A DNA stretch of 64,000 nucleotides from Hydrococcus rivularis NIES-593 (GTDB lineage Bacteria; Cyanobacteriota; Cyanobacteriia; Cyanobacteriales; Microcystaceae): NCBI RefSeq assembly GCF_001904635.1, contig NZ_MRCB01000023.1, positions 1 to 64,000 on the forward strand, written 5' to 3'. Of this stretch, positions 44,973-47,483 are shown in pieces. How positions within the stretch are numbered: position 1 is the first letter of the stretch; each line of letters starts with the position of its first letter. The notes below the pieces were generated by a model. It was not told where the DNA came from, made no database searches, and was given only the letters and a program-made list of their open reading frames with translations. A program made the translations under genes and the position numbers.

Positions 44973-47483
44973 ATGAGCGGTTTGATTGAAAAAAATTTAG
45001 AAAAAACCTCCCTACGCCGACTTCTCATCATCCCCTTTGTCTTGCAAGTTTTTGCGGCTGTCGGACTGACAGGATATTTCTCATGGCGGAACGGACAAAA
45101 AGCGATCGACGACCTTGCTAGTCAACTACAGCAAGAAGCCAGCTTGCGTATCGACCAACATCTCGATTCTTACTTAGCCGTTCCCCATCAAATCAATCAA
45201 ATAAACGAGCACGCGGTTCGTTTGGGTTTGTTGCAGCTTAACGATTTAGAAAAGCTGGGACAGTATTTTTGGAAACAAATGAAAGTGTTTCCTATCGGCT
45301 ATATCAACTACGGCGATGCCAAAGGTCATTTTATTGGCGTAGAACGGTTAAATAATGGCGAGCTTCGTATAGTTGAAGACGCTTCTGAATCTTCCACGCG
45401 AGACAACATTTATGAAACTGACAACTATGGCAAGAGAGTTCGTCTCATAGAATCAGTTGACGTGGGAGCAGATCATCGAGAAGAAGATTGGTATAAAGGG
45501 GCTGCTGAGGCGGGTAAACCGCTATGGAGTAGTATTTATCAGTGGGAAGATAAGCCAGAGGTACTTTCCATTTCTCTAAGCTACCCCGTCCATAACTTAA
45601 AAGGACAATTTCTTGGCGTGATAGGGGTAGATCTAATCCTCTCTCAAATTAGTCAATATCTAAGGCTGATTAAATTCAGTCCTGGGAGTAGAATTTTTAT
45701 TGTCGAACGCAATGGACTATTAGTTGCCAGTTCGAGTCGCGAGCAGCCATATATCGTCGTCGAAAAAGAAGCGCGACGACTCAATGTCTTTAATAGCAAA
45801 GAACCTCCGATTAGAGCTACTGCCGAGTACTTGCGGGATCTTTTTGGTAACTTTAATGGCATAAAAAGCGCTCGCCAGCTCGATTTTAGATCGAACGGCG
45901 AGCGTCAGTTCGTCCAAGTTACACCATGGCAAGACAAGTACGGTTTGGATTGGCTGGTAGTGGTAGTTACGCCAGAATCAGATTTCATGGCGCAGATCGA
46001 TGCCAACACTCGGACTACAATTTTGTTATGCTTGGGTGCTTTGGCAATAGCAACCGTCTTGGGAATTTATACGTCTCGCTGGATTAGCCAACCCATCTTG
46101 CACTTGAGTAAAGCGTCCCAAGCTATTGCAAGCGGTCAATTAGACCAACAAGTTCGAGTCGAAGGAGCGAGCGAACTGAGAACTTTAGCCCGCTCTTTTA
46201 ACCAAATGGCGCAACAGCTTAAAGAGTCTTTTACCGAGCTTCAAAAGACCAACGCCGAACTAGAAATCCGCGTCGAACAGAGAACCGCTCAATTCAAAAA
46301 AGCCGTGCAAGCCGCAGAAGCCGCCAATCGCGCCAAAGGACAATTCCTGGCAAATATCAGCCAAGAACTGCGGACTTCTCTCAATAGCGTCATTGGTTAT
46401 TCCAATCTCTTAATGAACGATCGCGCTCTATCTCCCCAACAAGCCAAAGGAGCCGAAATTATTCAGCGCAGCAGTACCCAGCTACTAACCCTGATTAATG
46501 ACATTTTAGACTTCTCCAAAGCCGAAACCAGCAAGGTCGAACTCGAACTCAGCGATTTTCATTTTCCTAGCTTTTTAGAAGAAATCTGTAGCATCATCGA
46601 GATGCGATCGCAAGAAAAGAAACTCCTGTTTCAGTGCCAGACGACAGACGATCTCCCTACTGGCGTGAGAGCTGATGAAAAACGACTCAGACAGGTATTG
46701 ATGAATTTGCTCGGCAATGCGGTCAAATTTACCGACCAAGGACAAATACTCTTTAAAGTTAGCGCGATCGGCACCGAGAATGCGATCGCGTCTTTGCCCC
46801 AACAACAGATTCGCTTCCAAATCATCGATACGGGTATTGGCATTGATCCCTCGGATCTAGAAAAAATTTTCCAACCTTTTGAACCAATTGGCGATCGCGA
46901 ACGCCTGCGAGGTGGTATTGGGATGGGCTTGGCGATGAGCAAACAACTACTGGAGTTGATGGGCAGCCAATTGCAAGTAATAAGCCAACCGGGACAAGGT
47001 TCGATTTTTTGGTTCGAGATCGCTTTACCCGTTGTTGAGATCGCCTCGACGACACAAGCAAATGCGATCGCACGAGTAAAGGGTTACCTCGGCAACAGAC
47101 GTAAGATTTTAGTCGCAGACGACAAACAAGAGAATCGCTCGCTTCTGCACAGTTGGCTCGATCCGCTAGGTTTTGAAGTAGTGATGGCAAAAGATGGCGA
47201 GCAAGGATTAACCGTCGCTCGCCAACTCAAACCAGACCTAATTATAACCGATCTGTTTATGGGCGTTAAAACTGGCTTGATGATGGCGCGAGAAATTCGG
47301 CAAACCGACGAGATTAAGGACGTGCCGATTATTGCTGTCTCAGCTAGCACCGCTGAGATGATAGAGGAAGCAAGTCGGCGAGTTGGCTGCAATACTTTTC
47401 TGCCCAAACCTATAGACGAGCAAAAGTTGTTGGTGCTACTGCAAAAGTATTTACAGTTGGAATGGATTTATGAAGGTCAATGA
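44973..47483 (+). CDS. Hybrid sensor kinase with Gln at the phospho-acceptor position
   Basis: An 836-residue membrane protein. TM1 (~18-37), extracytoplasmic dCache-like sensor (~38-345), TM2 (~346-367), HAMP (~368-421), HisKA-like (~450-515), HATPase with LMNLLGNAVKF (N box), IIDTGIGID and GGIGMGLAMS (G boxes), and a C-terminal receiver with ADDKQ, phosphorylatable Asp in IITDLFMG and Lys in FLPKPID. The H box reads ANISQELRTSLN, so the invariant His is Gln464 (CAA at 46362-46364). It may act as a pseudokinase or regulate through its receiver domain. No response regulator gene is adjacent. Confidence 0.9.
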   Translation: MSGLIEKNLEKTSLRRLLIIPFVLQVFAAVGLTGYFSWRNGQKAIDDLASQLQQEASLRIDQHLDSYLAVPHQINQINEHAVRLGLLQLNDLEKLGQYFWKQMKVFPIGYINYGDAKGHFIGVERLNNGELRIVEDASESSTRDNIYETDNYGKRVRLIESVDVGADHREEDWYKGAAEAGKPLWSSIYQWEDKPEVLSISLSYPVHNLKGQFLGVIGVDLILSQISQYLRLIKFSPGSRIFIVERNGLLVASSSREQPYIVVEKEARRLNVFNSKEPPIRATAEYLRDLFGNFNGIKSARQLDFRSNGERQFVQVTPWQDKYGLDWLVVVVTPESDFMAQIDANTRTTILLCLGALAIATVLGIYTSRWISQPILHLSKASQAIASGQLDQQVRVEGASELRTLARSFNQMAQQLKESFTELQKTNAELEIRVEQRTAQFKKAVQAAEAANRAKGQFLANISQELRTSLNSVIGYSNLLMNDRALSPQQAKGAEIIQRSSTQLLTLINDILDFSKAETSKVELELSDFHFPSFLEEICSIIEMRSQEKKLLFQCQTTDDLPTGVRADEKRLRQVLMNLLGNAVKFTDQGQILFKVSAIGTENAIASLPQQQIRFQIIDTGIGIDPSDLEKIFQPFEPIGDRERLRGGIGMGLAMSKQLLELMGSQLQVISQPGQGSIFWFEIALPVVEIASTTQANAIARVKGYLGNRRKILVADDKQENRSLLHSWLDPLGFEVVMAKDGEQGLTVARQLKPDLIITDLFMGVKTGLMMAREIRQTDEIKDVPIIAVSASTAEMIEEASRRVGCNTFLPKPIDEQKLLVLLQKYLQLEWIYEGQ

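Follow-up and report, generated by a model that had tools for sequence, protein, structure and literature searches.

The window analyzed here, a 64,000-nucleotide stretch from Hydrococcus rivularis NIES-593, contains an open reading frame (44973-47483, + strand) for a hybrid sensor kinase-like protein of 836 amino acids in which the phosphoacceptor histidine is replaced by glutamine. The protein combines histidine kinase homology with a lost catalytic residue, as a pseudo-histidine kinase does. We tentatively favor the reading that it is a lineage-specific pseudo-histidine kinase that works only via another kinase, in the manner of RetS or DivL. Pseudo-histidine kinases themselves are known; what is new is one that is confined to a single lineage and has both a Gln and a receiver. 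Neither the gene nor cyanobacterial hybrid kinases with such a Gln turned up in a search of open-licence papers. Cyanobacteria have dozens of paralogous sensor kinases each, and the gene may be regarded as a small natural experiment in which a sensor kinase is turning into a non-kinase.

The frame is open, with zero internal stops or frameshifts, and Pfam found dCache, HAMP, HisKA, HATPase_c, and receiver domains in that order, each over its cut-off. An N-terminal membrane segment and an extracytoplasmic dCache sensor (about residues 3-345, 44979-46007; Pfam dCache_1 at 45-265, membrane segments judged by eye) are followed by a HAMP domain (residues 367-418, 46071-46226), a HisKA/DHp domain (residues 454-519, 46332-46529; E 9.8e-18), a HATPase_c/CA domain (residues 568-685, 46674-47027), and a receiver (residues 712-822, 47106-47438), all on the + strand. 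No cognate regulator was found adjoining the gene.

Loss of the phosphoacceptor histidine

The H box of the window protein reads FLANISQELRTSLN, and that of its closest paralogue reads FLANISHELRTPLN. Translation of the open reading frame and comparison with homologues, by tblastn segments and by alignment, confirmed the original prediction that Gln464 (CAA, 46362-46364) occupies the phosphoacceptor position. A single base change suffices, as had been proposed, since the nearest relatives carry CAC. Conservation of the Gln among close homologues, which was to be checked by alignment, was rejected: His was present in 128 of the 129 tblastn segments that span the H box (from 116 loci), and the window alone had Gln; the change belongs to this lineage alone. 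That homologues have His is largely the observation that the original prediction had named as counting against it. All six same-genome paralogues that were read (L002, L003, L004, L005, L006/L008, and L007) also have His at site 464.

An exact-match search of 388 genomes of the order with the pattern N-[I/M]-x-H-E-[L/F]-R-T yielded 3,896 occurrences of the His box and eight of its Gln form; these counts cover boxes in which the variable residue follows Ile or Met, and miss most kinases of the DICT family described below, which have Val at that site. Six of the eight Gln matches lie in kinase ORFs (the window, L132, L133, L136, L137, and L138) and two (L131 and L134) do not. The one-step Tyr, Asn, and Asp forms gave seven matches in the same search. 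Six of these were read: in three, all of them kinase ORFs, Tyr takes the phosphoacceptor site, as in DivL (L166, a dCache relative at 33% identity, L167, and L172), two are non-kinase (L169 and L170), and L168 has an H-box-like segment without a visible ATPase domain. We also asked whether the dCache family is enriched in His loss, but the three of the six Gln-pattern kinase matches that belong to it are too few for such a claim.

We aligned 84 of the 163 collected ORFs of the family, namely the full-length ones together with a small named set of partial ones. Since L125 falls short of the H box, 83 rows are left at site 464, 80 with His and three with Gln; L132 and L138 entered the alignment only via the Gln pattern, so that the unbiased His count is 80/81. 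The three Gln rows fall in three separate clades of the tree, each with His in the nearest row, so that the His to Gln change had independent origins. L132 (G376:C258:19449-21983) is an independent full-length dCache hybrid whose nearest row, L162, has His; its ATP lid is two residues shorter and carries Q638R. L138 (G257:C13), a Gln-for-His dCache kinase, ends inside the ATPase domain and continues in another frame, that is, it is a broken gene.

The kinase core and the receiver

The original prediction held that the ATP-binding N and G boxes and the receiver Asp were intact. This stands for the N and G1 boxes and for the receiver Asp, but not for the F/G2 region and ATP lid (residues 638-652, 46884-46928), where the G2 box has changed from GTGLGL to GIGMGL (T649I and L651M, glycines kept) and Q638P is also present. 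An ATP site that is not fully intact speaks against a kinase that lacks its acceptor His and nothing else. The H box itself has Ser469 (TCT, 46377-46379) where 82 of 83 alignment rows have Pro, and contains no neighboring His. The ExxT motif is kept, with Glu465 and Thr468, the residues to which phosphatase activity is ascribed in proteins of this fold. In the receiver, the Asp716/Asp717 pair, Asp760, Ser790, and Lys812 are retained, and the usual Pro764 is Gly.

Upon comparison with 120 conserved columns (identity in at least 95% of His rows), the window protein departs at eight. Seven of these are among the 54 DHp/CA columns (H464Q, P469S, I473V, G501S, Q638P, T649I, and L651M), against one (F229Y, in the sensor) among the other 66; neither the receiver (0/15) nor the HAMP/linker (0/23) has any. 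The concentration in the core is significant (Fisher p 0.02), also when I473V, which the window protein has in common with its sister paralogue, is left out (p 0.045). Lid departures were seen in all three Gln rows, one of which is the broken gene L138, versus 4 of 80 His rows (Fisher p 4e-4).

Codon branch models written for this analysis (GY94, F3x4) gave a similar picture. For DHp+CA, omega was 0.467 on the window branch and 0.116 in the background (2dlnL 8.73, falling to 7.32 once sites 464 and 469 were removed), and a value of 1 was not rejected for the window branch (2dlnL 0.76). By contrast, the receiver omega of 0.150 rejected 1 (2dlnL 14.55), and that of the sensor, whose synonymous sites are near saturation, was 0.084 (2dlnL 29.82 vs 1); both values average across the entire branch since the duplication, and the purifying selection may be older than the loss of the His. 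We noted that DHp+CA omega is likewise raised on the stem of the sister paralogue (0.494, 2dlnL 3.70), and part of the relaxation in the window gene may therefore be a general post-duplication effect. Among relative-rate tests per domain, only one sensor comparison was significant, with the window faster (p 0.006). Collectively, relaxation is concentrated in the kinase core, and sensor and receiver are under purifying selection. A simple pseudogene is unsupported, and the view that the gene is not simply decaying holds up: 836 codons run without a stop or frameshift, and sensor and receiver look constrained, with omega far below 1.

Origin of the gene and competing readings

The window protein appears to be a mosaic, in that its kinase and receiver resemble the C3 paralogue L002 (G000:C3:80152-82683) and its sensor does not. 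Identity to L002 is 82% in HAMP, 89% in the linker, and 82% in DHp, versus 54% in the sensor; over residues 130-269 the window protein is nearer to paralogue L003. Sensor-only and HAMP-to-receiver trees conflict, the sensor tree being without strong support. Sensor exchange would be the simplest reading of the mosaic, and faster divergence of the sensor is the alternative. Elsewhere in the family, L006/L008 (G000:C7:71895-74446) occupies two adjacent frames, a sensor half and a kinase half with the joint at 323/324, which represents either a frameshift or a true split. Several relatives match only to about residue 690 and are without a receiver (L028 at G052:C91:97840-99948, and others at G162:C26, G375:C2, G326:C1, and G140:C1).

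Under the reading that we favor, a dCache hybrid histidine kinase was duplicated, its sensor was exchanged or diverged fast, and the phosphoacceptor His was then lost and the ATP lid decayed. Given the missing His and the changed lid, we infer that the protein would be unable to autophosphorylate. Its dCache domain would bind a ligand, upon which the protein would act on another kinase, most likely the same-genome paralogue at G000:C3, whose dimerizing DHp domain is 82% identical. Three modes of action can be envisaged: phosphoryl groups from the partner His might be passed to Asp760 as a sink, the ExxT motif might dephosphorylate the receiver of the partner, or a heterodimer might block autophosphorylation of the partner. 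The residues for a RetS-like sink or phosphatase are present (Asp716, Asp717, Asp760, Lys812, Glu465, and Thr468). The original prediction had likewise envisaged a pseudokinase signaling through its receiver, a phosphatase, or a heterodimer partner; the lost His, the open frame, and the kept phosphatase residues support it in part, but it had assumed an ATP site that turns out not to be fully intact, and homologues have His.

Against this reading, the gene occurs in one genome only and was deleted in the sister species. In G002, the closest genome, the upstream and downstream neighbors are 95-97% identical to those in the window, and between them the kinase gene is reduced to a remnant of codons 1-13 and 76-108. 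A remnant between shared neighbors indicates that the common ancestor possessed the gene and that the sister species has since deleted it; the gene is thus dispensable there. The upstream purD-like gene is present in four of four same-genus genomes, with the adjoining kinase in the window genome only and the remnant in one; in the stretches read from the two more distant ones, the kinase is absent beside that neighbor. None of the four same-genus genomes contains a close orthologue of the window kinase.

This history lends weight to a close rival: the gene may be a relic, that is, a redundant paralogue left without a catalytic center after duplication, functionless and drifting to loss. We regard this as a real possibility. 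Besides the remnant in the sister species, the relic reading is consistent with the DHp+CA omega that does not reject 1, and with damage to other family members in these genera (the broken L138, the truncated L122, and G002:C1:1835942-1838425 with an in-frame stop). The intact frame argues against it, as do the clustering of conserved-column changes in the core and the low omega of receiver and sensor, although that constraint may predate the loss of the His.

Two further readings start from the lesions of the C3 paralogue. L002 and its G002 orthologue L009 (G002:C1:1499531-1502074) keep the His but have D716G in the receiver, and they are the only two of 81 rows to have lost the otherwise invariant Asp716. 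Within a heterodimer, the window CA domain could then phosphorylate the paralogue His in trans, and the window receiver could accept the phosphoryl group that the damaged one would handle poorly. The opposite lesions (Gln464 with an intact DD pair versus His with D716G) fit such a complementary pair, and so does the high identity from HAMP to DHp with a differing sensor. However, the window protein has a degraded ATP lid of its own, the sister species has lost the window gene and retains the D716G paralogue, and the pairing was spotted post hoc; we consider it improbable. More doubtful still is a split signaling unit, in which after duplication one copy would have dropped the His and gained a different sensor while the other dropped the invariant receiver Asp, such that the full relay would run only in the heterodimer, which has a single His, a single good receiver, and two different sensors.

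The remaining readings have very little in their favor. An assembly or sequencing error would need only one base (CAA vs CAC), but is most unlikely, as Gln464 is one of several core-specific changes: six further conserved core positions differ, including Pro469 only five residues away, and the same His to Gln change recurs in other loci. An active kinase with a different phosphoacceptor residue is just as hard to credit, since no support for it was found, the lid is degraded, and the H box lacks a neighboring His; the excerpted text of PMC11784639 discusses tyrosine as an acceptor in archaeal kinases that lack an H box, and describes re-testing.

Comparison with known systems

We noted a cyanobacterial family that, like the window protein, has Gln at the phosphoacceptor position. 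Two of the Gln-pattern matches, L136 and L137, belong to this DICT-HisKA-HATPase_c family (rows L136, L137, and L173-L254). In one taxonomic family it was found in 48 of 60 genomes (E 1e-80), with Gln in 29 and His in two of the 31 loci read. Of 39 genomes selected from the order, 23 carry it, with Gln in 15, Arg in four, Glu in three, and Leu in one. Across the class, 51 of 116 genomes have a member; the 29 loci read there comprise 24 with Gln, four with Arg, and one with His. A joint alignment of 81 rows, in which at least two genes were read twice, has Gln in 69, Arg in five, His in three, Glu in three, and Leu in one; all 81 rows retain the N-box Asn, the G1 Asp, and the G2 glycines. The window genome has its own member, L214 (G000:C50:16630-17973), with Arg at the site. 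The DICT proteins form a conserved, class-wide, kinase-like family in which the His is absent from 78 of 81 rows, and this raises the question of what a strictly kept ATP site does when the His is almost always missing. The family differs from the window protein in its sensor, in having no receiver, in the class-wide occurrence of its Gln, and in the strict conservation of its ATP site. In the DICT family a Gln at the phosphoacceptor site is compatible with long retention, a point in favor of the pseudo-histidine kinase reading.

ChrS of Corynebacterium glutamicum is, as the window protein would be, an inactive copy among two paralogous kinases. According to the excerpted text of PMC9491836, this pseudokinase can heterodimerize with the paralogous kinase and alter signaling; it arose by a laboratory-evolved frameshift in the CA domain, whereas the window protein has a replaced His.

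Caulobacter DivL, whose structure (PDB 4q20) the window protein matches at E 1.2e-21, also has a replaced phosphoacceptor His, largely kept ATPase motifs, and no expected kinase activity. The excerpted text of PMC4211667 presents His replacement and weak ATP binding as compatible with an essential role. DivL has Tyr and keeps the H-box Pro (Pro555), where the window protein has Gln and Ser. DivL is conserved across alphaproteobacteria, and that text notes no receiver; the window protein is found in one lineage and has one (PMC4211667).

RetS of Pseudomonas aeruginosa keeps its His and has lost the G boxes, whereas the window protein has lost the His and its lid is only partly degraded; RetS has two receivers and the window protein, with a predicted partner and activity, has one (PMC5992135). 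Both are hybrid sensors with a periplasmic or extracytoplasmic domain and a degenerate catalytic part, and both keep the ExxT motif and the receiver Asp. RetS cannot autophosphorylate and acts on a related kinase, GacS, for which the excerpted text of PMC5992135 describes a phosphate sink, a phosphatase, and a block of autophosphorylation. If the RetS-like reading is true, duplication, sensor change, loss of the His, and decay of the lid, with the receiver kept, would have led from a sensor kinase to kinase-on-kinase regulation.
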